Source of the DNA: Sinohyriopsis cumingii
Lineage: Eukaryota > Mollusca > Bivalvia > Unionida > Unionidae
Assembly (NCBI GenBank): GCA_028554795.2
Contig: CM068842.1
Location: forward strand, 28,845,077 to 28,909,076
Direction of reading: 5' to 3'
Length of the DNA: 64,000 nt
Below the pieces are notes generated by a model. It ran no database searches and was not told the DNA's origin. It worked only from the letters and a program-made list of their open reading frames with translations. Positions 37,110 through 62,978 of this stretch are shown one piece after another (within the stretch, counting starts at the first letter, position 1; every line of letters starts with the position of its first letter). The position numbers and the translations under genes are program-made.

Positions 37110-37475
37110 GTTCCATTTTCTAGATCGAGATATTAGATTTTATATGTTGAATTACACAGTGGTGGTTTGAAGTTCTATTTCCTATGTCAACGTTTTACAG
37201 TGTATATTTTGAATTACACAGCGGTGGTTGAAATTTCAATATCATATGTCGAGAGTAGTGAAGTGGAATACCCTAGCGACAAGGGGACTTTAATGTTAAA
37301 CTAGTGGGGTTGTACCCTGGCGACAATGGAAAATTTAACATTAGCGAAAAAAGTTTGTACCCTGGCGACAATGGGAATTTAACATGGGGAATAAATTTTG
37401 GGACTGTTGAGCGGCAAGGGGAATTTAACATGGGGAATATATTTTGGGACTGTTGAGCGACAAGAGGGAAATGGA
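37110..37475. repeat. Left-arm direct repeats of element 1
   Basis: Two copies of a roughly 75-base unit end in 'gaattacacagyggtggttt'. They are followed by two to three copies of 'gtaccctggcgacaatgg' and two of 'gggaatttaacatggggaat' with 'ttttgggactgttgagcg'. Subterminal tandem repeats of this kind are usual in Polinton arms. Confidence 0.7.
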
Positions 37476-37483
37476 GCAGGGTC

Positions 37484-37507
37484 GGGACCCTATTTTAATA
37501 GGGTCCC
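37484..37507. other. Perfect 10-base-arm hairpin
   Basis: GGGACCCTAT and ATAGGGTCCC separated by TTTA. Could form a transcript hairpin or serve as a protein-binding palindrome; role unknown. Confidence 0.85.
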
Positions 37508-37603
37508 TACCTGATGGGTCTATGGAAATGGAACAGGGGAGAGGAATAGAACACACACACAAACACACATATAAAAGAAAAAAAATGGGATAGGCAATTG
37601 AAA

Positions 37604-37651
37604 GTCTATCTCTTTTCGAGAAATGTGGGTGGCCCTGAAAAGGGCCTTTGG
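37604..37651 (-). terminator. Histone-type 3' stem-loop and downstream element (minus-strand gene)
   Basis: On the minus strand: CCAAA, stem-loop GGCCCTTTTCAGGGCC, ACCCA, then about 13 bases later a purine-rich CGAAAAGAGATAGA. The stem-loop and flanks match the metazoan replication-dependent histone mRNA consensus, and the purine block matches the U7 snRNA target. It starts 20 bases after the stop of the 77-residue gene. Confidence 0.9.
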
Positions 37652-37670
37652 GTTTATGTTAATATATCCA

Positions 37671-37904
37671 TTAACATAAGGGGCACCGCACTGGTCTTCT
37701 TCTTGTCCTTAGGCTGCGTCTCACTGTAGGACCGTAAATCAGGACTCTTTTGAGGCATCCTTGTCTTTCTACGTAGATCCTACGTATCCACAGACTGGTG
37801 TCTGTCCTATGGACAACTGTCCAGTTGGATCGGACATACATGGGTATGTCCGTCCGGAACATCATCGTTGACACAAGGGTGGAAGAGTGTACGTCGGTCC
37901 ACAT
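37671..37904 (-). CDS. Small Arg-rich basic protein, 77 residues
   Basis: Open frame from an ATG 47 bases downstream of a TATAAATA box to a stop just before a histone-type stem-loop, so it is bounded by convincing signals at both ends. The C-terminal third is strongly basic (VRRSLRTRRRPVRCPLC) and ends in a CPLC pair of cysteines. I recognise no family. By composition it could bind nucleic acid, perhaps as a condensing or core protein, but that is inference. It is divergent from the coiled-coil gene at 38,124 and shares its promoter region. Confidence 0.6.
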   Translation of the reverse strand: MWTDVHSSTLVSTMMFRTDIPMYVRSNWTVVHRTDTSLWIRRIYVERQGCLKRVLIYGPTVRRSLRTRRRPVRCPLC

Positions 37905-37946
37905 CTTGAGGCGCCGAGAACAGGTGAATCAATGCAGTGAACTGCG

Positions 37947-38080
37947 CTTATTTATAGGTAGAGGAAGGATTGAAACGGATTGAGTTCATTAACCAATCCA
38001 AACACGCGTTACAAAATTCAGTCAGCCATCGTCCAATCGGAAGAGAGCAGTCTGTGACGTCACGTGGTCTATATAGATTC
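37947..38080. promoter_or_regulatory. Divergent promoter of the histone-ended gene pair
   Basis: TATAAA on the minus strand at 37,951-37,956 and TATATAG on the plus strand at 38,070-38,076. Between them are two CCAAT motifs (near 37,992 and 38,034), a palindromic CRE TGACGTCA (38,055-38,062) and an overlapping E-box CACGTG (38,061-38,066). CCAAT pairs with divergent TATA boxes resemble histone gene pair promoters. Confidence 0.8.
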
Positions 38081-38123
38081 GCTAGCGCCTGTGTGCAGTC
38101 AATCTATGCGACAGTTATTCAGC

Positions 38124-38696
38124 ATGACGGAAACTCAGAAAACGATCAGTTGGGGTGCACCAGCAGTGGAGACCGCCCAGGGGAACCCGGACTTACTTTC
38201 AGAAGAGGTAAATTGGGATTTTGTGGATTTTCTTACCTCGCAAGAATTTGTTCCGGAACCTTCGTCTCCTTCATTACCGCACGTGGAGAATTTTAGACAG
38301 AGACAGAAAGAAGAATTGGAGAAATTTATACAACGACAAAAGGAAGCGGAACAAGCTTTTCTCCTACAGCAACAACAGCAAGAAGAAGAGGTAAGAAAAA
38401 AACAAGAAGAAGAAGAAGAAGCAGCAGCAAAGAAACAAGGGTGTGAAAATCAAACGGTCACGGTATTGTTAGACATTTTAGCGGAGTTAAGAAGTCTGAG
38501 ACAAATGTATCAGACTTCTTTATTACGACCGAAGAGAATACGACCTTCCCGAGCTAAACACTCCAACCCTGTGACTAAGCCTACCGTGCCACCCTTAGTG
38601 ATTTCAACCAAATCATCATCATCATCAACAGTAAGCAGTCCAGAAGTAGGCCTCGGCCGTGGCAAAGGCTTAAGGCAGTTAAAGTTGATTGCTTAA
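38124..38696 (+). CDS. Glu/Gln-rich coiled-coil protein, 190 residues, histone-type 3' end
   Basis: Starts at the ATG 48 bases after the TATA box; an upstream in-frame ATG at 38,064 lies before the TATA box and is rejected. Residues 55-105 form a charged coiled coil (RQRQKEELEKFIQRQKEAEQ, then Gln and Glu runs). The C-terminal part is basic and Ser/Pro-rich, ending GLGRGKGLRQLKLIA. I recognise no family. The stop is 22 bases before a histone-type stem-loop, so its mRNA should end without poly(A) and be made mainly in S phase if host factors act on it. It faces away from the Arg-rich gene. Confidence 0.75.
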   Translation: MTETQKTISWGAPAVETAQGNPDLLSEEVNWDFVDFLTSQEFVPEPSSPSLPHVENFRQRQKEELEKFIQRQKEAEQAFLLQQQQQEEEVRKKQEEEEEAAAKKQGCENQTVTVLLDILAELRSLRQMYQTSLLRPKRIRPSRAKHSNPVTKPTVPPLVISTKSSSSSTVSSPEVGLGRGKGLRQLKLIA

Positions 38697-38711
38697 ACTC
38701 ACCCCTGCACC

Positions 38712-38760
38712 AAAAAAGGCCCTTTTCAGGGCCACCCACTTCTCTCGAAAAGAGATAGAC
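38712..38760 (+). terminator. Histone-type 3' stem-loop and downstream element (plus-strand gene)
   Basis: AAAAAA, stem-loop GGCCCTTTTCAGGGCC, ACCCA, then CGAAAAGAGATAGAC about 8 bases on. It is an inverted near-copy of 37,604-37,651, about 60 bases of similarity in all including 'aggcaattgaaagtctatct'. Confidence 0.92.
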
Positions 38761-38888
38761 TTTCAATTGCCAATAACTCAAAAAAAAAAAAACCATTTTA
38801 CCCATATAGTACGTGTCTGTGTATGAGTGCGTGAGTGTACGTTCTTATTTTAAAATCAAAACCCAGACACTTACCTTTTAATACTTAA

Positions 38889-38968: not shown

Positions 38969-39412
38969 TTAGTCTCTCTGTTTTTTGAATTTCTTCACCG
39001 TCACATTCTTTTCCTCTTCTTCCTCCTCACTTTTTTCCCTTCTTATTTTCTTCTCCTGTTTCTTTTTCTTTACCTGGCTGCTTTCTTCCTCTGAAGAATC
39101 CCTCTCTTCTGAAGAATCCCTCTTTTCTTCTGACTCCTCTTGTTTCTTTTTTGGGCAATCTGGAGACCAATGTCCTTTTTCTTTACAATAATAACAGGTA
39201 TCTTGAGTTTTGTCTTTTCTAGCCCCTTTGTTTCTTTTTTGACGGTCTGGACACTCTGAAGACCAATGCCCTTTCTTCTGACAGATATAGCAAGCATCTT
39301 GACTTTTATCTCGCAAGGAAGGAGAATAGTCCGTCGGCTGGTCTGAAGAGAATTTTCTAATAACCCCTCGCAAAGCTCTGATGAAATGTTCGATTTGTGT
39401 AGTCTCTTCCAT
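38969..39412 (-). CDS. CCHC zinc-knuckle protein, 147 residues
   Basis: Two retroviral-type zinc knuckles, CYICQKKGHWSSEC (residues about 41-54) and CYYCKEKGHWSPDC (about 72-85), each with the C-x2-C-x4-H-x4-C spacing. They are followed by a highly charged Lys/Glu/Ser tail. Such knuckles bind single-stranded nucleic acid, as in Gag nucleocapsids and cellular CNBP-like proteins. The gene is divergent from polB, with TATATAAAAG on the minus strand at 39,464-39,475. Zinc knuckles are not among the standard Polinton genes, so it may be captured from a retroelement or host. Confidence 0.85.
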   Translation of the reverse strand: MEETTQIEHFIRALRGVIRKFSSDQPTDYSPSLRDKSQDACYICQKKGHWSSECPDRQKRNKGARKDKTQDTCYYCKEKGHWSPDCPKKKQEESEEKRDSSEERDSSEEESSQVKKKKQEKKIRREKSEEEEEEKNVTVKKFKKQRD

Positions 39413-39546: not shown

Positions 39547-42500
39547 ATGAAACGATCCAATTCATTTGAAAAGAAAGAAGAAGAAAGTAAGAGGCAGAAA
39601 CGTGATCTATCGCCTCGTACCAGGGCTGAAGTCTTGGCACAAATTCATGCCAGTGATTTTGAAGAGGACATGAGTGAACCAGAATCCAAACCCTCTAAAC
39701 AAAGTTCACCACCCTTAGTCAACCCTGAAAAGTACTATTCCATTCGAGGGACGGAAAAGCGCTTCTCTAGAAAATTTAGAACCACGGCTTACAAATACAC
39801 GGTGAAGTTTAAAGATTTCAAGGCTGAAGTACCGTTAGAGAAAGCAGAAGGGTTCATCACCGGGCTGTGGAATTCTTTGCTCACCACACTCAAGCGACAA
39901 TGTCAACCCAAAGAAGACGATCGCTTGAGACTTTCCATACAACACGACAGTTTGAAATCCCCTGTTTGGATCGAGTTTAGCACCCCTGCAGAATTGACTG
40001 CTTCCAAAGTCATGGACAAGATTCAACACGTACAACAATCCAATGACCAGTTTGACATCACCGATGGAAAAGCCACACTGGACATGACCCACGTCTCTCC
40101 TCCTCAAGGGACTGGACGCAAAAAGATGTTATTGGTGGACGAGCTTCGCAGCACCAAAACAAGTCTCGTCCAAATTCACAACCCTCAAGACCAGATGTGT
40201 TTAGCCCGTGCCATCGTGGTGGGACGAACCTATGCCAACAAGAACGACACGGTAGAATGGAAAAGAACCTGGAAAACTATTCAACGATCCGACTGAGCCA
40301 AACAACGAAGTGAAGCAGAACTCCTGTTACAACAAGCCGGCCTGTCCACAGATACACCCTGTGGCATTCCCGAGATGCAAACATTGCAAGATATTTTAGC
40401 TCCACGCTACACCTTGAAAGTGCATCCTCAAGAAATGCGTGGGCCTCTGTTGTTTCGAGGGAAAGACTTTAAGGATGGAAAATACATTCACGTCTATCAT
40501 CACGATGACCATTTCGATACCATTACCAGTATCACCGGATTCCTAGGATACGGTTATTACTGTGAGAAATGTGACTATGGCTATAACAATCGAGAGCAAC
40601 ACAAGCATTGTGGCTCGAAGTGCTCAGGATGTTTGGCCTCTCAACCCTGTCTGAGCGAAGGACAAGAACCAGTGCATTGTTCAACTTGTCAGCGCACGTT
40701 TGTCAGCACTACCTGTTACCAACAACATTTGAAGACGCAAGGTTCACAGAAGAAATGTGCTTGTCAACTGCTGAGATTGTGCCGCGCGTGTGGACAAGGC
40801 ATACTTACCAATAATACCAAGGCACACGTATGTCGAGGAAAGAAAAAATGTCACATTTGTCACCACATCGTGGACTTGGAACACCAGTGCTACGTGCAAA
40901 AATACCAACCCCAACCAGAGAAAGTGGATGGACACAAGAATAAAGGCAATTTCATCTTTTTCGATTTCGAATGCATGCAAGAGACTGGCATTCACATTCC
41001 TAATTTCTGCGTGGCTCATCGAGCGTGCGAAAAGTGCATTCAAGAACCTATCGTGAGTCATTGCCCTTACTGCAGCAAGATTCCTGGAGGGCGTGAAAAA
41101 ATCTTTCGCGGACCGAACACGCTAGCCGAGACGTGGAGCCAAGAGGACATCGAACGTTACGGAGATTGTCATCGTCATGCCACGGTGATGGCTCACAATT
41201 TCTCCGGATACGATGGACAGTTTCTTCTCAGATACTATACGGAGCATGGCACCGAACGTCCTAAAGTGACTTTGAACGAAGCCAAAATCATTTTCATGCA
41301 AGTGGGACAAGTACAGTTTAAAGATTCGATAAGCTATTTGGCCATGCCTTTGAGTCGAATGCCTAAAACGTTTGGAATGACAGAAATGGCTAAAGGGTAC
41401 TTTCCTCACTTTTCAATACGAAAGCCAACCAACACGCCGTTCTACCCCATTTGCCTGAGGCTCACTATTACGACCCCGACAAGATGCGTACCGAACAACG
41501 AGAAGCATTCTACGCTTGGTACCAGGCTCACGCCTCAGACCCTTTCGACTTACAGGAAGAAATGCTAAAGTATTGTCGTTCCGACGTGGACATATTACGG
41601 CGTTGCTGTGGAAAATTTCGAGAACTGTTCATGGAACACGGAGGGGTCGATCCTTTGAAAGAAGCTTGCACCATTGCCAAAGCGTGTTCCTTAGTGTACA
41701 GACAACGATTCATGCCTGAAAACACCGTAGCTGTCATCAGTCCTCAAACGACCAACTATGTCAAACGTCAATACTCGGTCAAAGCTCTACGCTGGTTACA
41801 TTACTTGTGCGACAAGGAAGACAAATGGATTCAGCATGCCCGCAACGGAGGGGGCGAAAAGACCATCGGAACGCATTCGGTCGATGGCTGGGACTTAGAA
41901 AACCCCAAGATCGTGTACGAATTTAACGGTTGCTTATTTCACGGATGCCCCGTCTGTTACCCTGATCGCGGCACTAAAAATCAGTTTTTACAACGAACCA
42001 TGGAAGACTTGTACCAGACCACTTGTCAGCGACGCCTAAAGTTAGAACAGGAAGGATACCAAATGATGGAAATGTGGGAACACGAGTACGATCACCGTTT
42101 GAAAATCGATCCCGAGTTTAAACGCTTCGTGGAAAGCTACCAGTTCATGGACCCGCTGAACCCGAGGGATAGTTTGTACGGAGGAAGAACCAATGCCACC
42201 TGTTTGCTGTACCAAGCCAACGAAGAGAAAAGAGAAGAAATGAAATACTTGGACGTGTGTTCGCTGTATCTCTACGTGTGAAAATATTGTCGCTTTTCTG
42301 CAGGGCACCCGCAATTGTTGACGGAACACATCGACCTGAAAAACATTCGACAATACGAAGGTCTGATCAAGTGCAAAGTCTTGCCTCCCACGGACTTGTA
42401 CCATCCCGTGTTACCTCACCGTTGCCAAGGCAAACTGATGTTTCCTTTGTGCCGTACTTGTGCAACCAAGACCAACCTTGTCAGCACACCCAGGAAGAAC

Positions 42501-43570
42501 GGGCCGTGAGGGGGACATGGGTCAGCGTAGAATTGTTCAAACCTCTAGACATGGGATACCAACTGTTAGAAGTGTACGAAATTTGCCACTTTCCCAAGAC
42601 ACAACAATACCACAAGGGTGACCCCACGCAGAAAGGCATTTTCGCAGACTACGTGGATGCCTTTTTGAAACTGAAGCAAGAAGCCAGTGGTTATCCTTCC
42701 TGATGTCACACTCCCGAAGACGAAAAGACATTCAAAGAGAAATACTGGGCACAAGAAGGCATCACTTTAGATCACATCGAGAAAAACGATGGTAGGCGAT
42801 CGTTTGCCAAAGTGATGTTAAATTGCTTGTGGGGTAAAATGGCACAACGACCGTGTTTACCCAAGACGGAATATTTGACAGAACCTTCCCACTACTTCCA
42901 GATGATTCACGACAAAACCAAATTCATGAAACACGTGGACGTCGTTCGCGAGAATTTGATCTTGGTCAATTACGAAGAAGATCTGGACTTTGTACAAGAC
43001 GATCCCTTTGGAAATGTCATCATTGCGGCTTACGTGACAGCTCATGCTCGCTTAAAATTGTACGAAGCTTTAGAACTGTTAGGGGAACGTGTCCTGTACT
43101 TTGACACGGACAGTTGCATTTACATCCATCACCCGAGTCAACAGCACCCTGACATCGAAGGAGACCGTTTAGGAGCCTGGACAGACGAGCATCCCGACGA
43201 CAAGATTCTAAGTTTCGCCAGTGGTGGTCCTAAAAATTACGGCTACGAATACCGGGACAAACAGGGAGAAGTGCACACGACGTGTAAAGTGAAAGGATTG
43301 ACTCTGAATTATCGTACCAGTCGAGTGGTGAACTTTGGGGTATTGAAAGAAGCCTTGCAGTCTAGAGAAGATGAACACTTTAAAGTGACCACCTATCAAC
43401 CCAACAAGATTGTACATTTACCCACTCACCACCTCGTCACTCGGCCCTTAGAAAAAGTCTATCAAATCGTGTACCAGAAACGAGTGCGACTTCCCAATCA
43501 TTTCACCTTACCGTATGGACACGTTGGTATTGGTCTGTATATAAAAAGGAACCCTAGGCAAGATCGATAG
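39547..43570 (+). pseudogene. Protein-primed family B DNA polymerase of element 1 (pPolB)
   Basis: Polinton replication polymerase fossil. Seen in order: a charged N-terminal region, several Cys pairs (CEKC, CSGC, CSTC, CRAC, CHIC), exonuclease motif I (FFDFECMQETG), motif II (GYDGQFLLRYY), motif III (YCRSDVDIL), palm motif A (YLDVCSLYLYV), motif B (KVMLNCLWGKMAQ) and motif C (YFDTDSCIYI). The length of about 1,300 codons fits Polinton pPolB with its N-terminal extension. Catalytic motifs are present but the gene is broken, with several interruptions, and cannot act. Confidence 0.92.
43538..43547 (+). promoter_or_regulatory. TATA box of the BIR gene
   Basis: TATATAAAAA 56 bases before the ATG at 43,603, lying inside the end of the polymerase gene. 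Confidence 0.7.
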
Positions 43571-43602: not shown

Positions 43603-44238
43603 ATGAATACTTTCAGAGAAACGCAAAACAAGTTCAGAAAGGCACACTTCAAGTGTGGGGCTTCTGAAGTGGAATGCGATTGTGAGCCTTGCGATGGGAA
43701 CGATGCTATACGCAGTGACCTTAGCGATGCCGTAAAGCATCATGGGAACTTTAGTGTCACTACCCCAATCATGGAAAGTAATGCTGTGCGTGTCAAACCT
43801 GATGGATGCGAAAGTGATGCCGCTCGTCCTCTTGGACACTTTACTGGGTTTCATGGTCAATGTGGATGTTCACCTTCACGTCTACCCCTCTACGGATGTC
43901 ATCCAGCCCTGAGCAAACTCCTGTCCATGTCACCCTACCCTCATCGAAACGAACCTGTGAAAGACGAATATTCGTTCCCTGTACGTTTGTCGGAATACTG
44001 CAACTTTGAAAATCGTTTTCAATCGTTCAAAGGAAGATGGCCTAAGTATCTGGGAGGACCGACCCCCGAAGAATTAGCCAGAGCCGGATTTTTCTACTTG
44101 GGCGAAGGGGATAAAGTCAAGTGCTTCAGTTGCAGTGTGTCACTTCATCACTGGGAACCGCAAGATTCAGCCTACCTGGAACATGCTCGATGGTCTCCGC
44201 GTTGTCATTACTTACCCTCAGTAGGACAATATATTTAA
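43603..44238 (+). CDS. BIR-domain protein (inhibitor-of-apoptosis type), 211 residues
   Basis: The C-terminal 85 residues form one BIR domain: FENRFQSFKGRWP, then LARAGFFYLGEGDKVKCFSC, HHWEPQDSAYLEHARWSPRC and HYL. The zinc ligands Cys-x2-Cys, His and Cys (H-x6-C) are all present with normal spacing. BIR domains bind caspases or IAP-binding motifs and block apoptosis; baculovirus and other large DNA viruses use them against host cell death. There is no RING finger. The first 120 residues are Cys-containing but unrecognised. It has its own TATA box and follows polB. Role as an anti-apoptotic cargo gene is inferred from the domain. Confidence 0.9.
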   Translation: MNTFRETQNKFRKAHFKCGASEVECDCEPCDGNDAIRSDLSDAVKHHGNFSVTTPIMESNAVRVKPDGCESDAARPLGHFTGFHGQCGCSPSRLPLYGCHPALSKLLSMSPYPHRNEPVKDEYSFPVRLSEYCNFENRFQSFKGRWPKYLGGPTPEELARAGFFYLGEGDKVKCFSCSVSLHHWEPQDSAYLEHARWSPRCHYLPSVGQYI

Positions 44239-46019: not shown

Positions 46020-46748
46020 ATGGCTACCTCTGCTGTCTCTGCTCCCTCTTCCTCCACTGTCAAAGTCATCGACGAACATTTAGATCGTGTCAGTTGGGAG
46101 TTTTTGTATCTTCGCCATCCCTTTAACATGCTCATTGCTGGACCTAGCGGATCAGGCAAAACCGAATTCGTCAAACGTTTGATCAAACATAAACATCATT
46201 TGATCGATCGACCACCTCAGCGGATCGTGTGGTGTTACAAAGAGTGGCAATCGGCGTACAGCCTCTTGCGAGAAAGTCAAGGCAATTCCATCGTGTTTGT
46301 GGAAGGCATTCCTAAAGAAGACGACGGCATCGTCTCTGACTCCCGTCAAACCCATTTGGTCATTTTCGACGACATGTTAGGAGAAGACGAAGAAGAAATT
46401 AAACTGTGGTTCACGCGCAAAGGGCATCATCGTAATGCCAGTGTTGTTTACATCACCCAAAATTTGTTTCAACAAAGTAAAGCCCATCGCACCATCAGTC
46501 TCAATGCACATTACGTGGTCTTGTTTAAAAGCCCTCGAGATAAATCGCAAGTGCAAGTCTTAGCCAAACAGTTAGGGACGCCTTGGCTGACTCAGGCGTA
46601 CGACGATGGCACTCAAACTCCACACGCCTATTTACTTGTCGATTTGAAACCTACGACCCCCGATGATTTGCGATTTCGTACCCACTTGTTTCACCACTGG
46701 GACCAAGACGGAGGGCCTGTCCTGTACACGTCTCCGTCCTCGACTTAA
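46020..46748 (+). CDS. FtsK/HerA-type genome-packaging ATPase of element 1
   Basis: 242 residues, the normal length for Polinton ATPases. Walker A is GPSGSGKT (residues about 40-47), Walker B is LVIFDD (about 114-119), and a conserved ITQN sensor follows at about 142-145. In adenovirus-like and NCLDV relatives (A32 family) it pumps DNA into the capsid. Own TATA box. Open throughout. Confidence 0.92.
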   Translation: MATSAVSAPSSSTVKVIDEHLDRVSWEFLYLRHPFNMLIAGPSGSGKTEFVKRLIKHKHHLIDRPPQRIVWCYKEWQSAYSLLRESQGNSIVFVEGIPKEDDGIVSDSRQTHLVIFDDMLGEDEEEIKLWFTRKGHHRNASVVYITQNLFQQSKAHRTISLNAHYVVLFKSPRDKSQVQVLAKQLGTPWLTQAYDDGTQTPHAYLLVDLKPTTPDDLRFRTHLFHHWDQDGGPVLYTSPSST

Positions 46749-48920: not shown

Positions 48921-50030
48921 ATGGAAAAAGTGTTAGCCAGCATTTACTACGATCCCTCGCATCCTGCAGGTTACACAGGAGTTCAAAAGTTGTATCGTGC
49001 TGCCAAAACTCGACTGAAAAGTCTCCGTTTACCTCAAGTGCAACGATGGTTACAAGAACAAGCTACTTACACTTTACACAAACTCATTCGACGCAAGTTT
49101 TCCAGAAGTCGCACCCGAGTGGAAGGCATCGATCATCAATGGCAAGCCGATTTAGCCGATGTCTCTCATTTGGCCAGCTACAATCGTGGCTACAAATATT
49201 TGTTTTGTGTCATCGACGTCTTTTCCAAATTTGCCTGGGTCGTACCCTTGACTTCCAAATCGAGCAGCGAGTTAGTGCGAGCTCTGCAACGAGTGTTGAA
49301 ACAAAGCGGTCGTCACCCTCTTCGATGGCAAACGGACAAAGGCACCGAATTTCTGAACCAAGCGTTCCAAAAAGAATTAAAGAAACGTGACATTCATCTT
49401 TTTACCACCGAGAATCCCGAAACTAAAGCCAGCATCGTGGAACGTTTTCAACGCACTTTGAAAGAACGCATGTGGAAATATTTTACGCATCACCACACTC
49501 TGAAGTACATCGACATCTTACCGCACCTGGTGCAAGCGTACAACCAATCTTACCATCGAAGCATCGGACGTGCCCCGCAAGAAGTGACTCCCGAGAACGA
49601 AGTGATGGTGTTTGAGCGCCTGTTTTGTACGTCCCCGACGAGGGCTGTCCCCAAGAAAAGTGGAGTGTTGGCCGTAGGAGATTGGGTGCGCATTGGCAAA
49701 ACCAAACGCACTTTCGACAAAGGTTACTTACCGAACTGGACGACCGAATTGTTTCGTGTCACTGGACGAGTGCATGGTCGTGATCCTGCCGTCTATAAAT
49801 TGGAAGACATGAACGGATAAGTGCTCAAAGGAACGTTTTTCTTACCCGAGTTACAACGTGTCACCAAAAAAGAAGACGACGTGTACGACATCGAAAGCAT
49901 TCTCGAACGCAGAAGCCGTAAAGTGGGCCAACGACGTGTCAAAGAAGTCAAAGTACGTTGGAAAGGATATCCACCCAGTTTTGATTCTTGGATCGACGCT
50001 TCGCAAGTCATCGACTATAAAAAGAAGTGA
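48921..50030 (+). pseudogene. Polinton integrase with C-terminal chromodomain
   Basis: Retroviral-type DDE integrase that would insert the linear element genome. Starts MEKVLASIYYDPSHPAGYTG. Catalytic residues are visible in QADLADVSH (Asp), WQTDKGTEF (Asp) and ASIVERFQRTLKER (Glu). The downstream chromodomain reads YDIESILERR and VKVRWKGYPPSFDSWIDASQ, which in related elements guides insertion toward modified chromatin. The core is open; the whole gene counts as broken. Confidence 0.9.
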
Positions 50031-51820: not shown

Positions 51821-53127
51821 ATGATGCACCGAGAGTCTTGCGCCTGTTCCAAGTCGGAACTGGATCTGTTTGCCATGCCACCCACTATGATGACCATGCA
51901 AGAATTCCAATGGGTGGAATTTCACCCTGTCTCCTCTTTGACGTATTCCGCTCCCATCGAGTTTGAAATCAAAGGACAGCCCGAAGATTACATCGATATG
52001 AACATCAGTTACTTGTACCTGAAAGTCAAAGTTCTTGATAAAACAGGAGGTGTTATAGATGACGAGCCAGTAGCTCCCGTCAACAATTTCATGCATTCCT
52101 TGTTTAGCGGAGTGGACTTGTACTTGATTAACAAACTAGTCAGTAGCAGCATGGATACTTACCCTTATCGAGCGTACCTGGAAAATCTCTTGACGTACGG
52201 AATAGACGCCAAGAACACTCATCTCAATGCTTGCGTGTTATGGGAAGCTGATGATACAGGCGAGTTTGACAAATTGGAAATTGATACAAAAAAAGACTAC
52301 AATCAGGGATTTGTAGAACGAAGAGACAAAATCAAAAATGGTCAGAGTTTAGAACTGATGGATCGTTTGCATTTGGACATGTGGCTGCCAGAAAAGTATT
52401 TGCTGAACGGGGTGAATGTTCGCCTGAGACTGAATCGTAGGAGCGCCGCTTTCCATTTTGTGGCTGATAGTGACAATTACAAAACCATCATCCAAGAAGC
52501 CAGACTCTACATACGTCGTGTGGAAGTGTTACCTAAAGTGGGAAACGACATTAGTCAGACGTTGAGCAGAACGAACGCCAAGTATCCCATACGACGCGTG
52601 GAAGTGAAAACCTTCACCATTCCTGCTGGACAGCGATCCATGATCGAAGATCATCTGTTCCAAGGGCAGTTACCGAAACGTTTAATCCTTGGTATGGTCG
52701 AGAATAGAACCTTCAACGGATACCACGATCAAAATCCCTTTGAGTTTAAACATTACAAAGTGTCCAAGATTGAAGTCAGTCGCGATGGCAAGACCTTGTG
52801 TACCCGACCTTTCGAACCTGACTTTGAGAAGAAGAATTACTTGAGGTCGTACTTGTCCCTGTACGAAGCCACGGGACAGTTAGGAACCAACACCACTCAC
52901 GGCATTACATACGACGATTATGCAGGAGCCTATGCCTTGTGGGCTTTTGATTTTACTCCAGACCAAGCCCCTACGAGGGACATTTCCACCCTATAAAATC
53001 CGGTCAGATTCGTGTGGAACTTCAGTTTGCAGAAGCTCTAACTGAGACGGTGAACGTCATCCTGTATGCAGAATTTGACAATGCCATAGAAATCAACAGT
53101 TTAAGAGAAGTCATTCTAGATTATTAG
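51821..53127 (+). pseudogene. Major capsid protein (double jelly-roll) of element 1
   Basis: About 430 codons, normal for the Polinton MCP. It starts MMHRESCACSKSELDLFAMP. Conserved words are VEFHPVSSLTYSAPIEFEI, DMNISYLYLKVKV, GVDLYLINKLVSSSMDTYPY, RAYLENLLTYG, YPIRRVEVKTFTIPAG and FDFTPDQAP. It forms the hexon-like shell. Nearly whole, with about one break. Confidence 0.92.
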
Positions 53128-53132
53128 AAGCT

Positions 53133-53642
53133 ATGGAAGACTGGTATCCCTCTTTACCTAGTGGAGAAACTTTGGAGATGGAATGTGAGGAGACTGTGGA
53201 AGAAGAAGAAGAATCCCAAGACAAAGACGAAGAAGTTATCATGATGAAGTCGAGATGGCCAGAACAAGAAGCCCATTTAGTCTCTTGTTTTGCCAAACAC
53301 TTGGTCGAAAAAATGACGGAATTGATCAAGAAAGATTGCTATGGATGTCAAAACGATCATCCCAGTCAAATTCAACACGATAAATGCCTGATGCTGAGTC
53401 AAGAAGAAAAATTGGACCAGTATCTGGACGAAGCTTGGAGTCTCATCTCGGACGAAGTCGTGTTGCATCAGTGGTATAAAGACTTGCGTGAACATTCTTG
53501 TCCACCATTAACCACTCAAGAGATTCATCGTATCGAAGCTCTCCTGAATCAGAGTGGGGAGACGAAGCTAAACGCCTTTTACTTGTCAGACATTTTCAAG
53601 CAAAAAGTCAGGATCGAATTGATCACTTATTATTACCTGTGA
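53133..53642 (+). CDS. Conserved Polinton Cys/His protein, 169 residues
   Basis: Acidic N-terminus with a Glu run, then LIKKDCYGCQNDHPSQIQHD with C-x2-C, DHPSQ and H, followed by DKCLM and EAWSLISDEVVL. The CYGCQNDHPSQ..H..CL block is widespread in Polintons from memory and looks zinc-binding. Overlaps the protease start as TGATG. Function unknown. Confidence 0.72.
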   Translation: MEDWYPSLPSGETLEMECEETVEEEEESQDKDEEVIMMKSRWPEQEAHLVSCFAKHLVEKMTELIKKDCYGCQNDHPSQIQHDKCLMLSQEEKLDQYLDEAWSLISDEVVLHQWYKDLREHSCPPLTTQEIHRIEALLNQSGETKLNAFYLSDIFKQKVRIELITYYYL

Positions 53643-54226
53643 TGAAAAAAAAACCACACAAATCAACGGATACCTGGGAACTTTATTATCTTTTGAACCA
53701 CAGCTCGTACACGGCTTCTTGGAATCCTGTCGTCTGTGCTAAAGATGAACTCCCTCATCGCAAACCTCAAGACCATCAAGCTTATGTGATCAACACGGAC
53801 GACAGTCATCTCCCAGGAACCCACTGGGTAGCCGTCTACTTTCCTCAAGAAGGATGTGTGGAATATTTCGATTCGTATGGATTGCCCCCTTTGGAAGACG
53901 ATATCATTGACTTTATGAGAAGAAATGCTCAGACCACCCGATTCAATAATGTGAAATTACAAGGCACAGATTCCTTGGTGTGTGGACAATATTGTGTGTA
54001 TTTTCTGCATCATCGCAGCCTGGGCTATTCCTTAGAACATTTAGTGACTCATTTTGATTCTCGTTCTTCTTCTAGAAACGATGTGAAAATAGATCGATGG
54101 TTTTGTGACCATTATGCTTATCTTTTGTCTCAAGCTAGGAAACGTAGTGTCCATCAATGGCCTAATGACTTCCAACAGTGGAAATCACAATTTCATTCAC
54201 AACGTTGTCAGCCTTGTCCAAAATAA
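53642..54226 (+). CDS. Adenain-like (Ulp1-type) cysteine protease of element 1
   Basis: 194 residues from MKKKPHKSTDTWELYYLLNH. Catalytic His in GTHWVAVYF, acidic partner in VEYFDSYGLPPL, and the Gln/Cys motif in SLVCGQYCVYFLHH. In the family it matures virion proteins. Open frame with all catalytic residues visible. Start overlaps the upstream stop. Confidence 0.92.
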   Translation: MKKKPHKSTDTWELYYLLNHSSYTASWNPVVCAKDELPHRKPQDHQAYVINTDDSHLPGTHWVAVYFPQEGCVEYFDSYGLPPLEDDIIDFMRRNAQTTRFNNVKLQGTDSLVCGQYCVYFLHHRSLGYSLEHLVTHFDSRSSSRNDVKIDRWFCDHYAYLLSQARKRSVHQWPNDFQQWKSQFHSQRCQPCPK

Positions 54227-54370: not shown

Positions 54371-56116
54371 TTTGTCCTTTGTTTGGCTATAAGAATGTTG
54401 ATTCGTGCTCTTTGACTTCTTACTATCGCTCTCATGACACTCATTGAACGGTCCGACTCGAAAACCGTGTGGGGATGTTTTCCTTCACGTCCGCGCTTTG
54501 ACTTTAAAAACCGGGGCAGTTTTCAGTCTAACCATCATCATTCATTCATCATTCATTGATGATGATCATCATCCATCATTGATTCATCATTGAGCTGCAG
54601 CGCACGCTCCTTTACTAGCGAAAAAAAGAAACAACAAAAATACAAGATCAAGAGGAAAGAAGACTATCTATAACAAGAATAAACAGAAGAAAAGAAAGAA
54701 AAACAATATTTACATCAACTGGAAGACCAAAAACATCAAACGGAACCGAAGCTGACCCATAAAACAGAAACCATAGCAGGAAAACAGAGCAGCAGCATAG
54801 GAACAAAGGGATTCCATAGCGGCGTGCGCGGTAAGCACGCTAAACTGCCACACCACCAACAATAAGGTAGGGGGTTTATTTAAGCCAAACTAAACCTACG
54901 GGTAACATTGTGCCTTATAAAACCATTAAATAATCGAATTCTGAATACATTTTTCTGAACATAGTAACTAATAACTACTAATACTCGAATAAATAATCCT
55001 AACCCCCACCCCTAATTTTACCTAACCCAACTTTTTCCCTGACTAATTTTAATAACTCCCGACCACAAACGGACTAATGCAGGCCCAAAACAGGAGCTAG
55101 GAACCACACTAGCAATTCCTGGTTGAGATCCTTGAGACAACTTGTTGTCAAAAGATTTCTCATCAAGGGCAGCAAACGACTAAGTAATTCCCTTTTTTTT
55201 TCTTTCTTCTTTCTTTCTTGTTTCCTTTATACCTTTTAATAATACTAGACAGTTTCCTCTTTAATAATAACCAAACTACAACTGATTTACTATTTAATAA
55301 TACATCAAACTAATCAGCAATTACCTAATTAAACTAAACTATCTAATTCATACACCAAATTCAAGTTTGAATATTAATTTCATGGTTTTACACATATAAA
55401 CAACCACGGGCGGTACAACGCGAGTATCAAATTACTGAAACAACGCATTCCACTCCACTCGCAGACCGCCAGAATCTAACTAAACTAAACACTCGACGAC
55501 CAATAGAAATCATCGTCTCAAACCGATATAGAAGACCACTTCTCCGCTAAATTAAAAAGCGCAAGCACTACATTAATCAAAAGCAAGTGCAGCTTACCCC
55601 GCTCAAACAAATCCGCGACCTAGTCTCCAATCAAACACAACCTAGCATCGCCCACTTCGGGTGATTAGTTAATTCCGCCAGTAAGATATATCGGAATCAC
55701 TACATTAACCACAAAAGAAGAAATAACCCCACGCACATAGAAAAATAAATAAATAAATAAATAAAATAAATAAATTAATAATAATAATAAACAAATATAT
55801 AACTAAAAACCAGAAACATTAAAATACAATAAATAATTATAAACAGAATGATATAATAACAAGAGAACAACAAACAAGCAATAAATAAAAATAAATTCTC
55901 ACATAAAATAAAAATAAACGGAAAAAAGGGGGAAACACAAAACAACATAAAATGGCCACTAAAATAAATAAAATAAGACTTGATGACCAAAAAAGACAGG
56001 AAAGAACAAAACAAATTAGGAGAAAACGAAAAATGGATAAAGCTATAGATCAAATAAATAAAAGCGCAGACATCAGTCAAACGCAGGTACAGCAGCAGAG
56101 GGGGCGAATCGGACAT
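54371..56116. other. Gene-free stretch between the two virus-like elements
   Basis: Contains a simple-repeat palindromic patch (catcattcattcatc... around 54,530-54,595), an A-rich segment, an AAAT run at 55,740-55,775, and little else. A stretch 'gcgcggtaagcacgctaaac' near 54,825 looks superficially tRNA-like but does not fold as one. No gene or terminal repeat recognised. Confidence 0.5.
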
Positions 56117-56119
56117 TTT

Positions 56120-56288
56120 GTCCAATCGTTATTTTGCTTAATTATTACTTTCTGCACTCAACGATCTAGTGTCGTCAGCGCCTGGTAAAAAAAAAACGAC
56201 GACGTCGTTGGGGGATCGTCCAATCGTCATTTGGTTTAATTAACACCTTCTGCGCGTCGATCCCCAGCGTCGTCAGCGTCCGGTAAAC
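56120..56288. repeat. Direct repeat pair, period 98 bases
   Basis: Copies at 56,120-56,190 and 56,218-56,288 share 'gtccaatcgt', 'tttaattaa', 'ttctgcrc' and 'cgtcgtcagcgyc..ggtaaa'. Rich in CGTCG words. Lies in the arm beside the ATPase stop. Confidence 0.8.
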
Positions 56289-56350
56289 ACATCGACGACC
56301 GCGTCGATGTCATCGCCCCCCCTGCTGCTTACAATGAAAATTATTTACAA

Positions 56351-57025
56351 CTAACCGAATATTTGGTCAAGTCCGATACGATATCGTGTCCGAGGGTCAT
56401 GTAAATTTATCGTTACGAATCCATGTGGGGTCGACTGAGCATGACTAAAAAAGTTTCGAAAAACATTAAAGTCCATGTCACCGCCGCACCATGTCTGCCA
56501 AATATTTCGTAGCGTGTGTGTATCAACGCCGTTGAATACAGCAAGAATATTACAGTTGTCTCTGATTACTTTTGGAATCTGAGTGTATCGTTGAGTGACA
56601 TATATCACGTCAGTGTTTTTATGCCTGCCTCTGGAAAATATCCTAGCTGGGTTTTTTTGATTGTCTAACATAACATCATCGTACACGACTAGATTGTTAA
56701 CGTCGCCATCAATATCATCAATACCTGGTGCATCATTGATATCTGTAATAAACTCAATAACATTTTTTTTAGCGATCGCTGATGCATTCTCGTTGAAATC
56801 TTTCAACACCTCGTAGCATCGTTGATCATCTACGCTAGGAGCAACCAAATACAACTTATCCCACTTCATCCATCTCATTATTAAATTGAGTAACAATTGC
56901 GTCTTGCCGGATCCAGATGGTCCGATGATAATCATCCGGATCGAGTTTGGTAACGCTGCAACATGCTTAACTGGTTCTCTTGTTTTAGTCGCCGAAAAAT
57001 CAATTATATTCATATCTCTATACAT
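56351..57025 (-). CDS. FtsK/HerA-type packaging ATPase of element 2
   Basis: About 220-224 residues. Start is the ATG at 57,025 or, equally likely, 57,013 (MNIIDFSATKTREPV). Walker A IIGPSGSGKTQ, Walker B NLVVYDD, sensor IYVTQRY. It belongs to the same superfamily as the element 1 ATPase (A32-like) but is only distantly similar. Divergent from the zinc-ribbon gene with just five bases between the two ATGs. Open throughout. Confidence 0.9.
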   Translation of the reverse strand: MYRDMNIIDFSATKTREPVKHVAALPNSIRMIIIGPSGSGKTQLLLNLIMRWMKWDKLYLVAPSVDDQRCYEVLKDFNENASAIAKKNVIEFITDINDAPGIDDIDGDVNNLVVYDDVMLDNQKNPARIFSRGRHKNTDVIYVTQRYTQIPKVIRDNCNILAVFNGVDTHTLRNIWQTWCGGDMDFNVFRNFFSHAQSTPHGFVTINLHDPRTRYRIGLDQIFG

Positions 57026-57030
57026 AAATT

Positions 57031-57195
57031 ATGGATCTATATTGTGTGAAGTGTAGAGTACGTACTGGCACAAATGATATGACAACCGCTACAACAAGAA
57101 ATAACAGATCGGCCCTTACTGGTAAGTGTGCACAATGCGGTACAAAGAAATTTAGATTTATTTCTATTAAACCCGGGGATGTTTTAAAAAAAAGC
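57031..57195 (+). CDS. Zinc-ribbon domain (DUF5679-like), start of the PLA2 gene region
   Basis: MDLYCVKCRVRTGTNDMTTA, then LTGKCAQCGTKKFRFI: two CxxC pairs about 30 residues apart. This matches the DUF5679 pattern that I recall directly before a phospholipase A2 domain in virus-like elements. Possibly a nucleic-acid-binding or structural head of a virion protein. Confidence 0.75.
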
Positions 57196-57199
57196 GAGG

Positions 57200-57554
57200 A
57201 GGTGATATTGCAGCCAGGTTATCAAAACTCCCCGGAACCCCGTGGGCAAAGTATCCAGGAGAAAAGCACCTCCCAGGATATAGCTACTGTGGCCCTGGAA
57301 CACGATTAGATATCAGACTCGATGATCAAAATCAGCCCAAACCCGGTGAGTATCCAATAAACGCTATCGATAAGGCGTGTCATGCTCATGATGTTGCTTA
57401 CAAAAGTAGCGATCTGCAACAGCGTCATATCGCGGACGTAAAATTAATTCACGCGTTAAATGCTATTCCTGATAAATCCGTCAAAGAAAAATTGGCTTCA
57501 TGGTTGGTAAAATCGGCTATGAAAGGTAAATTAATGATGGGCGCCGGTAATTAA
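57200..57554 (+). pseudogene. Parvovirus VP1u-type phospholipase A2 domain
   Basis: Calcium loop YCGPGTRLD, catalytic helix DKACHAHDVAY with the His-Asp pair, then RHIADVKLIHAL, and a C-terminal ASWLVKSAMKGK helix as in parvovirus VP1 unique regions. In parvoviruses this enzyme, carried on a minor capsid protein, cuts endosomal membranes during entry. It follows the zinc ribbon, so together they mark a minor virion protein. Fossil status: probably broken once. Confidence 0.85.
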
Positions 57555-57561
57555 TAACAAC

Positions 57562-58506
57562 ATGGAATCCATCTATTATTCTCCGAGAGGATACTGGAAG
57601 GGGAAGGCCGCAATTGGTAAGCTTGCAAGCGCTGCAAAGGTAACAAAGGCCACTGCGGCTAATTGGTTATCCAAACAGGCTATATGGCAAATTTATCTAC
57701 CACCGCCTAAACAAATTAACTTCTCGCGCTTTGATGTCAGTGTACCTAATGAAGTTCATCAGGCTGATATACTATTTTTGCCGCATGACAATGGTTACAA
57801 ATACGCGCTAACCGTAGTTGATGTTGCGAGTCGATACAAACAAGCGGAGCCGTTAAAAACAAAGTCAGCAACTGAAGTAGCCGCTGCGTTTGAAAGAATT
57901 TATCAAAGAGGTCCTCTGCGCTGGCCAAATCTATTACAAGTTGATCCCGGTAGTGAATTTCGCGGCGCTGTTTTATCAACGCTGAAACATCATAGCGTCG
58001 CGATACGACGAGGTCATACTGCGCTACATCGTGATCAGGCAATTGTTGAACGATTCAATCGGACTCTTGCTGAACGGTTATTTGGATATCAATACGCGAA
58101 GGAATTCATCCAAGAAAAACGATCTCGTGAATGGGTTAAAAGGTTGCCAGGCGTAATTGCAGCGTTAAATAACGAGATTACCCGAGCAATCAACATGAAG
58201 CCCAGCGACGCGATTAAATACGAGTATATACCCGGAAAATCAAAAATAAATAGCGTTTCCAAGCCGATTCTCGGCAATGTCACCGTGAGATATCTATATG
58301 AACCAGGAGAGCTTGAAGGCGGTAAAAAAAGAGCTACTGATCCTATTTGGAGTGTTACCACACATAACATATCAACGATAACACGATCAACTGGTAGACC
58401 ATCGATCTACAGACTGGATTCAACTGCTCCTCAGCGCGGATTTACACGCGAGCAACTACAAGTGATACCTGACGATACTCAATTACCCCCGCGTGGTCTT
58501 AACTAG
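57562..58506 (+). CDS. DDE integrase of element 2, 314 residues
   Basis: Starts MESIYYSPRGYWKGKAAIGK. Catalytic residues lie in HQADILFLPHD (Asp), QVDPGSEFRG (Asp) and QAIVERFNRTLAERLF (Glu). C-terminal words VRYLYEPGELEGGKKRATDP are characteristic of an integrase type I recall from cnidarian and arbuscular-mycorrhizal-fungus genomes. Clearly different from the element 1 integrase and without a chromodomain. Tail-to-tail overlap of eight bases with the replication gene. Open throughout. Confidence 0.88.
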   Translation: MESIYYSPRGYWKGKAAIGKLASAAKVTKATAANWLSKQAIWQIYLPPPKQINFSRFDVSVPNEVHQADILFLPHDNGYKYALTVVDVASRYKQAEPLKTKSATEVAAAFERIYQRGPLRWPNLLQVDPGSEFRGAVLSTLKHHSVAIRRGHTALHRDQAIVERFNRTLAERLFGYQYAKEFIQEKRSREWVKRLPGVIAALNNEITRAINMKPSDAIKYEYIPGKSKINSVSKPILGNVTVRYLYEPGELEGGKKRATDPIWSVTTHNISTITRSTGRPSIYRLDSTAPQRGFTREQLQVIPDDTQLPPRGLN

Positions 58507-61500
58507 CGCCGTTGCGTCTATTGCACTCAAGACAGGTCAACCTCACATTGTTTTTAACATGACCGAGACTGTTATCGATTCTGTCCACGGTAAATTGGCG
58601 AGCGTCTTTATCCGAATAACGCCAGCGCATTACACAATTACAACTCGCGCAGTGATTATTCTGTTGTTGTCGTAACGCAATTATTAATTCGGCATCAATA
58701 TCAAAACGCCGCTGTTTTTTTTTATCCTGTTGGCGGTAACCCGAGAGTTTTCTATCAATGACTCTTGCATCGATGGTGACTTTGTCGCCGGCTTCGTCAC
58801 TGGCTTCGTCAATAACAATTCTTCGAAGCTGATTTATCCTTCGTACTCGGGACACTGCAAGATAGACTAGATTCGACCATTCGATGCGATTATCAACTAT
58901 CCAAACAATTGTGTCCGTGATGGTTAGTCCCTGCGAGGAATGTATTGTTGTTGCGTATCCTAGCGTCCACGGGGATTTATCAGCACGTAGCGCGTCCTCG
59001 ACGACGCTGATATCAACGAGCACGATATCATTCAGCACGAGAATTTGTTTTTCTGTCCGGCCTGGAATTTCAACTTCAATGTTCTGCCGCCGTGTGTCCG
59101 CGGGTCTATAACATAACGGCACTGGGCGCGTTGGAAACTTTTCCTTATGCAACGTAAACAACTTTCGCTGAAGTGTGTCTCTGACTATCTTTCTACTCGC
59201 TACAATCAAATCATTTGGTCTCCATGTTTCCCAGAATTCATTTAACGGCGTTTCCGGAATCACCTCGCGGATTATTTCACACTGAATTCTATCCGGCTGT
59301 AATCTGATTAATTTTTTAACCTCGCGCAGTTGTTCATCAAGTGCCCGGTAATCAGTATCGGTTTCTTCATAATAGTCCACAAAACCCTTTAACCAATCAT
59401 GTGGGCCCTCGCCGACAAATGGTGGTGGTTGACCATGGTCGCCACACATGATCACCGCTGTATTCGCGAGCAGCAACCAATCAAGAAACATTTGTAAAAC
59501 ATCTAACGAAACAGTACATATTTCGTCCCAGATGATAACCTCAGGAATAAATTTTTCACCCATTCGATCAGGAGTCCACTCGCCGCCGCTGTATCGAAAA
59601 AAGCTGTGATAAGTAACGGCGTCAACATTTCGTTGTTTTATTTCTCGCGCTAGTCTATGGGTCGGTGTAAGCACGATTATACTTGCCCGCGTTCGAAATA
59701 ATTCAATTGCCCGAGTCGTCTTTCCTGACCCGCCACAGCCGCTTAAATAAACCGTCTTGTGTCTACAAATTGGATCAGAACACGGTGGTGCATTAGACCA
59801 TTCTGATAATTTATCACCGCGTAAGTAGTCGTTCTCAACGGTGACATCTGCTGACGGGGAATAATCGCGTCGTATTTCATTTTTAATTCTCCATGTACCC
59901 CAACTCTCGTCCGGACTAGTAAACTCGGCTACGTTTTTCTTGTACTTTACGTCTATATAAAATGAATCAACGGCTACTCTAACCGCGGTGTCAGGAAATC
60001 TATTTATCATCGAGAATAAATTAATAGCGGCATAACCCAGCATAGACGCCCTCAAATGCGGGTATGCCGGGCTGTCTCCATCGCTGTAGGTAACAACTGT
60101 ACCCAACCTTGTTCCATTGGACAAGAAAGCTGTTTTGCAGTTCACGTATCTATTTTTCGCCACTGCGTCCTTGATTACGAAATCATATTCTGCGTCATCT
60201 ATAATCAGCCGTGAGCAATATCGTTTGTAATCGCAGTTTTTTCCACCTTGTGTAAACTTACCAATTATTCTTCTACCGAGATCTTTTGCCTCGCGGTTTC
60301 GTTGGTTGAATATCCTCCTGGACCATTCGATGATATATTCCTCGTCGGCATCAATGTTTTTTCTGGACTCGTCAATTATACTGTCTAGACGCTCCGGTTC
60401 TGGTAACCAGACTTCAGTCTGCGCCCGGTATGATATAATCGCGTCACTGACAATCAACGAAACTAGCATGCTACAATCAATCATATACCGTAGCAGCGCT
60501 ATTGGCAGCCACTTCTTTTCAGCCATGTGTCTACCGATCCAAATATAGCAACAGCGATGGAGTCCTGCCGCGAATTCAAATGATACTATGCGAGCGAATC
60601 CGGTTAAATCAAAATCAGGCAGTGGTCCATTAATAGCAACACGAGTCATTTCATGTCTGGGGTGTCCAAATCTTTTGAAATACTCAGCGGTGGATCCATA
60701 CCTGCTGGATAACAGGCAACCATATCAACCGAGATCATAGCGTCGCGGCTGTATTCAGTGTTCCATAGTCCACCGTGATAGTATTCCAAACAACTGGATT
60801 GTACATCCGGCAGAAATTCCTTGCGCGTTGGTCTCCACGCATTTTTCCTTGCTGCAACATGAGCTACAACCGATGGAATCGTAAAACAATTTGTTAGCAG
60901 TTGTTCATCATGCTCTTCAAATTCCATGGCGGTTTTTTTCATCCTGTTGTGAAATGCTTCAGTACGATATAATTCGCCGTTTGGTCTTACAAACTGATCA
61001 AAGGTATCCGCATCGTTTTCAGCGCTGCGAAGTAACCACACTGATACAGGGTCGTTTTTACACAAGTAGGCAATAGCATCAAATAGTTTCCTCTCCGCGA
61101 GAAAACCGTCCTTGGAGAATTGTTCTCCCAGGAATTCTTCGGGTATATACTTTACTGTTCTATCCCGTGGAAATATTGTGATCGCGGGCGTCCATGCGTG
61201 TTCGTTATGATCAATAATTTTGATTGGGGCTCCCTTCGATTTATACTTCGATTCGTATAATACTTCACCGGTTATCGTTGTAACGGTTATTGGAAATCTC
61301 AGCGATGTTTCTAATCTCGCTATGTCGCTGATGGTTGCTCCACGCTCTTTTACGGTTAGTTCCCACTGGTTGATTTTGCTACGTCGTAAATCAGTCAATT
61401 TGTTTCCTCGACATGCATTTGTAAAATGCTCTATTATTCGTTCTGCTACACAATTTATCCCAGTTGACTGTTTCATCGGTTTCAGTTTTCCGATATCAGG

Positions 61501-61968
61501 TTTCTTATTTAACGGGTATATTCCATAAACAACTGCTGTTTCAGGATACGCTCGTTCATAGTATGGTTTGTCAATTCCGGTTAACAACCCCGGCTTGGAG
61601 TCGCGGCTGACAGTGACTGTTTTCTTGTCGCTGAGAACTGGTTCAAATTTATCACGCATGATCCAATCGCCTGATTCCACCCGGACAATGAATTTTACTC
61701 TGAATAAATACCTTTTACCGTCAAGTTGTGATATTATCGTTGCTGCGCGGTTGTCGTTCATGGTAGCATCAACAATGCCATCAATTTGAAATGTTGACCA
61801 ACTGTGAGATGCGCCATCACGCTTGAATTCATTGATACAATCGCGTATTTTACTCAACAGGGTTTTATCGTTTATTAACGCTTTTGGTGTGTCCTTGAGG
61901 ACTCTATCGAGATTGAACTTAATATTTTTCCGGGGTTTAATTGCTGCCAATCTCTCGAACTCATCCAT
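58499..61968 (-). pseudogene. Large replication gene: polymerase-like region, SF1 helicase, C-terminal HNH
   Basis: Read on the minus strand. The N-terminal part (MDEFERLAAIKPRKNIKFNL...) carries NCVAERIIEHFTNA and a VDMVACYPAG word resembling palm motif A of family B polymerases. Further on are IGKFTQGGK, LRASMLGYAAINLFSM and VAVDSFYID, which could be motif B and C equivalents. Then comes a superfamily 1 helicase: Walker A SGCGGSGKTTRAIEL, VIIWDE, VIMCGDHGQPPP and the late motif TIHSSQGLT. At the C-terminus an HNH nuclease reads CASCNCVMRW, FTVDRIDNSLGH and RLTCLECNRRNG. Long readable stretches; about one break. Confidence 0.8.
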
Positions 61969-62007
61969 ATAATTAAAACAAGTATTTAAATGAAAGAATA
62001 TAGTATA

Positions 62008-62331: not shown

Positions 62332-62344
62332 TATTATTATACAA

Positions 62345-62875: not shown

Positions 62876-62879
62876 CAAG

Positions 62880-62935: not shown

Positions 62936-62978
62936 GCGATTAATTAATCATTTTACGATGAAAACTAATGAAATACAC

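Follow-up and report, generated by a model that had tools for sequence, protein, structure and literature searches.

To our knowledge, use of the histone stem-loop is considered all but restricted to replication-dependent histone mRNAs, and we know of no earlier non-histone viral gene set that runs through the histone 3' end pathway. Polintons (Mavericks), the other system with which the present locus has to be compared, encode a double jelly-roll major capsid protein and produce a 6-bp target duplication. In the accessible part of PMC11071296, the definition of adintoviruses includes a PolB with an N-terminal OTU-like domain, and abundant Mavericks in clams are on record in the accessible part of PMC8905726, whose repeat table gives 7091 and 6453 Maverick entries in two columns.

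The locus described here shares features with both systems. A sequence-only reading of the 64-kb window (the whole stretch of DNA that was analysed) had claimed that both genes of a divergent pair end in a stem-loop followed by ACCCA, and this is borne out by a pattern scan and by the scores of the Rfam model RF00032 (Histone3; gathering score 34 bits). The 16-nt GGCCCTTTTCAGGGCC followed by ACCCA stands at 37631-37646 (minus strand) and 38718-38733 (plus strand), and full-length RF00032 matches that score above gathering lie at 37606-37651 (minus strand, 42.5 bits, E 3.2e-09) and 38713-38758 (plus strand, 38.4 bits, E 1e-07). These two sites are the sole gathering-level Rfam matches within the window, and in a permissive Rfam scan of 34000-64000 both stem-loops were joined by no more than three snoRNA-type matches, all of them sub-threshold. 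When up to 3 mismatches are allowed, a 19-base pattern is found at exactly two places in the window, which are again the two stem-loops, and dinucleotide shuffles contain the stem-loop pattern at a mean of 0.03 per window. The distance of 20-22 bases between stop and stem that had been claimed for both genes holds for the right one, where the stem starts 21 bases past the stop codon ending at 38696, and not for the left one, where it starts 24 bases past the stop codon 37671-37673. The CGAAAAGAGATAGA block starts 12 bases past the stem on the left and right sides alike, and both tails lie within a 60-base inverted repeat (37590-37649 / 38715-38774, 95% identical). The features of the window copy are as follows.

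37254..37655, no strand: left terminal region, with the probable terminus AGTAGTG... and tandem repeats of about 45 bp
37606..37620, minus strand: histone-downstream-element-like block of the left gene (CTCGAAAAGAGATAG), from the sequence
37631..37646, minus strand: left gene's histone-type 3' stem-loop (RF00032, 42.5 bits)
37671..37904, minus strand: left gene, an ORF of 77 aa, basic by eye, mean dN/dS 0.128
37905..38105, no strand: divergent promoter region, with what we take to be TATA-like motifs for both genes and two CCAAT motifs
38106..38696, plus strand: right gene of 196 aa, or 190 aa from the conserved start at 38124; by eye coiled-coil-like; mean dN/dS 0.368
38718..38733, plus strand: right gene's histone-type 3' stem-loop (RF00032, 38.4 bits), present in all 20 of the copies chosen by protein similarity
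38744..38758, plus strand: histone-downstream-element-like block of the right gene, GAAAAGA in 20 of 21 copies including the window
38969..39412, minus strand: CCHC zinc-knuckle gene without stem-loop, AATAAA 75 nt past its stop
40375..43570, plus strand: DNA polymerase B, with several broken frames here, PF03175 in the first two of three pieces
43603..44238, plus strand: BIR-domain (inhibitor-of-apoptosis-like) gene within the Polinton, PF00653 E 9.4e-23
46020..46748, plus strand: A32-like packaging ATPase, PF04665 E 5.7e-08, over the cut-off
48921..49820, plus strand: rve integrase, PF00665 E 1.7e-14
51821..52996, plus strand: presumably a major-capsid-like protein, no family match
53642..54226, plus strand: adenain-like protease, PF00770 E 0.0099, a weak match below the cut-off
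54474..54496, plus strand: box GATGTTTTCCTTCACGTCCGCGC, one mismatch to the box before host H2B, the promoter-like box of the lost gene X

That the pair is part of a Polinton, as had also been claimed, is upheld by its copies in the host genome (2.905 Gb, 1138 contigs searched), in which the pair runs on into the CCHC gene, PolB and later genes. Seven of the first eight GGCYCTTTTCAGRGCCACCC loci (L005 and L006 among them being one copy) match the window over the pair and beyond it towards 39-40 kb; the remaining one, L003, represents a right end. In nine of the 12 ten-kb regions taken from the GGCYCTTTTCAGRGCCACCC list (L009-L017), the alignment starts at the left tail, reaches about 43 kb and has 88.7-93.0% identity, L010 with a gap of about 300 bp, and the remaining three are two rearranged copies (L018 and L019) and another right end (L020). 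The rearranged L018 carries two right-type ends 400 bp apart that face outward, 4824(-)/5223(+), and L019 has three stem-loops, at 3718(-), 4955(-) and 6405(+).

The alignments of L002 and L017 begin at window position 37254 (AGTAGT...), and L016 contains two copies facing each other, with the ends CCCCATATACTACT and AGTAGTATAAGGGG; position 37254 is therefore very probably the left terminus of the element, with the pair inside it. Terminal inverted repeats starting with AG are represented by this probable terminus, by the facing termini of L016 and by a tail common to both ends: the inner edge of the left terminal region carries the stem-loop tail of the left gene, and that tail (37580-37655) is 97% identical over 76 nt to the gene-B tail of L020 (4389-4464). 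The core genes of Polintons are present as PolB (PF03175), rve integrase (PF00665) and A32 ATPase (PF04665), the adenain match being weak. The PolB pieces gave no OTU match in Pfam (E <= 0.1), the protein of 51821..52996 gave no capsid match in the family search, and the search of PDB sequences with it returned nothing useful. The similarity of the window copy to L016 stops at 54536, right after the promoter-like box, and gene X is lost; no TIR pair was found within the window because the right end of this copy is lost. The G+C content is about 33% in the host and about 44% in the element. Between 44239 and 45095 the window holds a 150-aa ORF followed by a second copy of it that is 76% identical. 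A second, different Polinton-like element occupies 56351-62875, with an A32-like ATPase, a helicase (AAA_19 match) and, by eye, integrase-like and PolB-like ORFs; it has no histone-type stem-loop or box.

The fuller copy L016 contains three further small genes, X, A and B, which are arranged in tandem and have been lost from the window copy.

L016 970-1338: gene X, 122 aa, followed by the stem-loop AGCCCTTTTCAGGGCT (RF00032 29.4 bits, sub-threshold)
L016 1828-2112: gene A, 94 aa, followed by the stem-loop AGCCCTTTTCAGGGCT (RF00032 31.6 bits, sub-threshold)
L016 2599-3207: gene B, 202 aa, followed by the stem-loop GACCCTTTTCAGGGCC with one A-C mismatch (RF00032 26.2 bits, sub-threshold)

The three RF00032 matches are full-length though below the 34-bit cut-off, and each of these stem-loops is then followed by (A/C)GAAAAGA. 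All three genes are complete in one copy read, L016; in L020 the A and B tails stand in the same order, with a whole gene B of 189 aa and the tail only of gene A. The signal that had been claimed for two genes is thus present on both of them, and as a count the claim fell short, since the fuller copy has five: shortly past the stop, the left and right genes, X, A and B each carry a 16-nt stem-loop with an AC-rich flank and a GAAAAG block, all sense-oriented. The five genes sit at the two ends of the element, the divergent pair on the left and the tandem genes X, A and B on the right.

The copy number of these signals is high. GGCYCTTTTCAGRGCCACCC, of the GGCYC type, has 6778 + 7038 = 13,816 exact matches in the host genome and AGCCCTTTTCAGGGCTACCC, of the AGCCC...GGGCT type, has 19,306, the reversed control giving 0 in both cases. 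The hybrid AGCCC...GGGCC, in which the outer pair is an A-C mismatch, has 154 matches, so that the paired forms predominate (G-C 13,816, A-U 19,306, A-C 154), with G-C and A-U stems standing on different genes, i.e., as an exchange between related tails and not within one gene. The exact stem-loop followed by GAAAAGA 6-12 nt past ACCC is found at 12,934 places, compared with 13,816 when the block is not required and the stem-loop pattern is slightly wider. Over the first 9.9 Mb of contig 1, a same-strand AGCCC stem-loop lies 12-20 kb downstream of 51 of the 80 GGCYC stem-loops; the control placements gave 8 (upstream, same strand), 4 (downstream, other strand) and 8 (upstream, other strand). 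Adjacent same-strand AGCCC pairs closer than 3 kb number 36 in the same stretch, with a spacing of 768-886 in 35 of them and 1365 in the other; opposite-strand pairs that close are absent. This placement and spacing make X and A regular constituents of the element. As to gene B, six GGCYC stem-loops lie at the expected place after an AGCCC one in these 9.9 Mb, and its protein gave 14,155 first-look candidates in the genome, of which 150 were scored. Pattern matches follow each other regularly at C8:55958479-56331427 (about 93 kb) and C2:88.77-89.39 Mb (about 10.9 kb), and this regular spacing points to large tandem duplications.

Conservation was followed in 20 copies (L054-L073) obtained from matches to the right-gene protein (150 scored of 29,275 first-look candidates) and hand-picked to spread over contigs. 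The right stem-loop is present in all 20, and with the window included the exact 16-mer is found in 17 of 21 tails, six standard pairs in 20 of 21, and GAAAAGA, with GAAAAG 13 nt past the stem, also in 20 of 21. Two of the 20 copies, L056 and L072, lack the left stem-loop and the other 18 have it; among the 19 left tails that this gives with the window, the exact sequence stands in 13, six pairs are kept in 14 and GAAAAG lies 13 nt past the stem in 18. Across the copies the spacer between stop and stem changes in length by insertions, and the stem and block stay constant. Pairwise column identity in the right tail is 0.977 for the stem-loop, 0.981 for the next five bases, 0.854 for the gap and 0.953 for the downstream block; the corresponding values for the left tail are 0.948, 0.77, 0.707 and 0.827, i.e., the left tail is looser than the right. 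Pairwise comparison of the 21 copies (210 pairs) gives a mean dN of 0.081 and a mean dS of 0.632 (ratio 0.128) for the left ORF; for the right ORF, whose divergence is biased downwards because it was used for the choice of copies, the means are 0.023 and 0.063 (ratio 0.368). Synonymous sites in L054-L073 have thus diverged ten times as much in the left gene (0.63) as in the right gene (0.06) of the same copies, which mosaic copies or the choice by the right protein could explain. A stop in the window's frame occurs in 3 of 21 left ORFs and 5 of 21 right ORFs, and left ORFs of at least 75 aa are found in 14 of 21 copies; the copies are therefore a mix of intact and decaying genes.

None of the five proteins (left, right, X, A and B) matches a histone family or has a convincing match in Pfam or PHROGs, and the left and right proteins have no convincing match among PDB sequences. 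By eye, the left protein is small and basic, and the other four are helical or coiled-coil-like. In IMG/VR there was no confirmed relative of the right gene, the capsid-like gene, the PolB piece or the integrase, and no match to the stem-loop pattern.

The sequence-only reading had identified the signal as that of replication-dependent histone genes and proposed a comparison with the histone 3' ends of this species, which supports the identification: the stem, loop and downstream element match. An H4 query has 114 matches in the host genome, those on one contig being mostly about 8.3 kb apart, and one histone repeat has the order H4-H2B-H2A-H1-H3 in one direction. Every gene in the three repeats read ends with GGCCCTTTT(T/C/A)AGGGCC, or GGTCCTTTTCAGGACC in H1, and then (A/C)GAAAAG(A/G). 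The stem of the window element is that of host H2B, and element and host tails share GAAAAG and a second block like TCAATTTTGCC, most clearly with H2A. The alignment score between the host H2B tail and each of the five element tails was reached by 0 of 500 shuffles, and that of the H2A tail by 0 of 500 for the left, right and A tails, 2 for X and 6 for B; for the H4, H1 and H3 tails the likeness is uneven, their scores being reached by 0 to 117 of 500 shuffles. A scan for stem-loops with six pairs over 212.5 kb returned histone ends and element tails only.

The likeness extends to the upstream regions. A 23-nt box, GATGTTTTCCATCACGTCCGCGC, a motif that was chosen after being seen, precedes X, A and B in L016 with 3, 1 and 0 mismatches (a second box before B has 2), stands in L020 before A with 0 mismatches and twice before B with 1 each, and is found in the window with 1 mismatch at the site of the lost gene X. 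In the host, it lies upstream of the ATG of H2B (85-107 nt, 0 mismatches) and of H1 (83-105 nt, 1 mismatch), and reversed between H2B and H2A with 4 mismatches; dinucleotide shuffles contained it 0 times at up to 3 mismatches. The upstream regions of host H4 and gene A have a 21-mer, TTTCTTTTAGGTCCGCGCGTT, in common. When the whole histone repeat is compared by BLAST, at E up to 0.05, with L016, L020 and the window, the matches are the boxes and the tails with the stem-loops, and none of them lies in window 1-36000 or 54601-64000. The upstream region of the left pair has TATA-like and CCAAT motifs and no GATGTTTTCCATCACGTCCGCGC box. The U7 model RF00066 and the SLBP model PF15247 found no match in the host genome, where their controls were equally silent. 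The best pattern match for a U7 gene, L074, was rejected as a candidate: it reads like a decayed gene-A tail of L020 and has no strong 3' hairpin.

We consider it probable that these observations reflect a high-copy Polinton family that has histone-gene signals on its five end genes and expresses them by the SLBP/U7 route. In this mechanism host SLBP would bind the element stem-loop, the U7 snRNP would pair with the purine block (CTCGAAAAGAGATA / CTAGAAAAGAAATA), and the pre-mRNA would be cut between the two, giving mRNAs without a poly(A) tail that would be made and kept mainly in S phase. Accessory products, probably early or host-manipulating ones, would then appear when the cell replicates its DNA, and the core genes (PolB, integrase, capsid, protease) would use ordinary ends. 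The element would probably benefit by timing its early or host-manipulating proteins to S phase and by doing without poly(A).

Among the other explanations, the one that survives best, unlikely as it is, holds that the tails are relics: host histone 3' flanks that were captured together with regulatory DNA, were spread by the copy number of the element and have no part in RNA processing, the genes themselves being polyadenylated or silent. The tails and boxes are indeed host-like in sequence and part of the copies have broken genes. AATAAA or ATTAAA is found downstream of 9 of 20 left genes, about 90-190 nt from the anchor used, and a poly(A) fallback for the left genes is possible on this basis. 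A survey of such hexamers up to 400 nt past 17 window ORFs, which is weak evidence, found AATAAA at the CCHC gene, a 125-aa ORF, a 160-aa ORF and the protease, and ATTAAA 172 nt past the stop of the left gene. Relics would, however, hardly be expected to keep stem, loop, flank and block at near-fixed spacing on five separate genes, nor to show paired forms of the outer pair that far outnumber the A-C hybrid, nor a left stem-loop at 0.948 pairwise identity beside a gene with a mean dS of 0.63.

It is much less probable that the hairpins are DNA or protein-binding sites (an origin, a packaging or a recombination signal) that resemble histone ends by convergence. Such a role would suit their clustering at the two ends of the element, the position of the outermost ones at the inner edge of the terminal repeats and the 60-nt inverted repeat in the window. 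It fits poorly with hairpins that, in the copies read, are sense-oriented past stops and accompanied by a downstream element and a host-like extended block, with the X and A hairpins lying outside the terminal repeats, and with a promoter box shared with host histones. Still more remote is a decoy in which abundant histone-ended transcripts titrate host SLBP or U7, for which one can cite the 33,122 exact stem-loops of both element types as compared with 114 H4 matches in the assembly; the left ORF is under purifying selection, which means that the proteins matter. Finally, the suggestion that the pair belongs to the host, as decayed histone genes beside the element, to which its divergent layout with histone ends, similar to the divergent H2A-H2B pairs of other animals, could give rise, is refuted by the copies, because pair and downstream Polinton genes recur jointly (7 of 8 first loci, 9 of 12 fetched regions), the probable left terminus lies outside the pair, there is no histone similarity, and the host histones are in a tandem repeat elsewhere.

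The signal was probably taken from a host, the direction of transfer being suggested by the fact that the histone 3' signal is ubiquitous in animals, and possibly long ago, since the left copies differ at a dS of 0.63. We lean, with less assurance, towards the view that the element took over a whole host histone programme, i.e., the promoter box (on three genes), the stem-loop with the U7 target (on five), S-phase expression and non-poly(A) ends. This would be a new viral expression strategy, by which polyadenylation is avoided and S-phase timing, and perhaps access to the histone locus body, is gained in one step. The tens of thousands of stem-loops are a natural set for the study of SLBP and U7 specificity. 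They also call for caution: the stem-loops of the element outnumber those of the host histone genes in the assembly many times over, and histone stem-loop searches of such host genomes would be swamped by them.

Our literature searches, which chiefly covered freely accessible papers, returned no report of histone 3' ends on virus or transposon genes. In their accessible parts, PMC11071296 makes no mention of stem-loop or polyadenylation, and PMC11071308 makes no mention of histone, stem-loop or polyadenylation. The accessible part of PMC11071296 does describe a viral histone-like gene, the 'Histoid' of adomaviruses; there it is the protein that is histone-like, whereas here it is the regulatory ends only, and both are cases of a virus with a histone tie. 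With Polintons/Mavericks and adintoviruses, the present element shares PolB, rve integrase, A32 ATPase, a weak adenain-like match and terminal repeats that end with AG, and it differs from them in having end genes with histone-type 3' ends and a histone promoter box. With the replication-dependent histone genes of metazoans, it shares the stem-loop soon past the stop, the AC-rich flank and GAAAAG at about 13 nt, and with host H2B and H1 also the box upstream of X, A and B, but its proteins match no histone family and its genes belong to a high-copy virus-like element. We file it as a Polinton (Maverick / adintovirus-like) with a putative new expression strategy, which would work like a histone gene set without being one.
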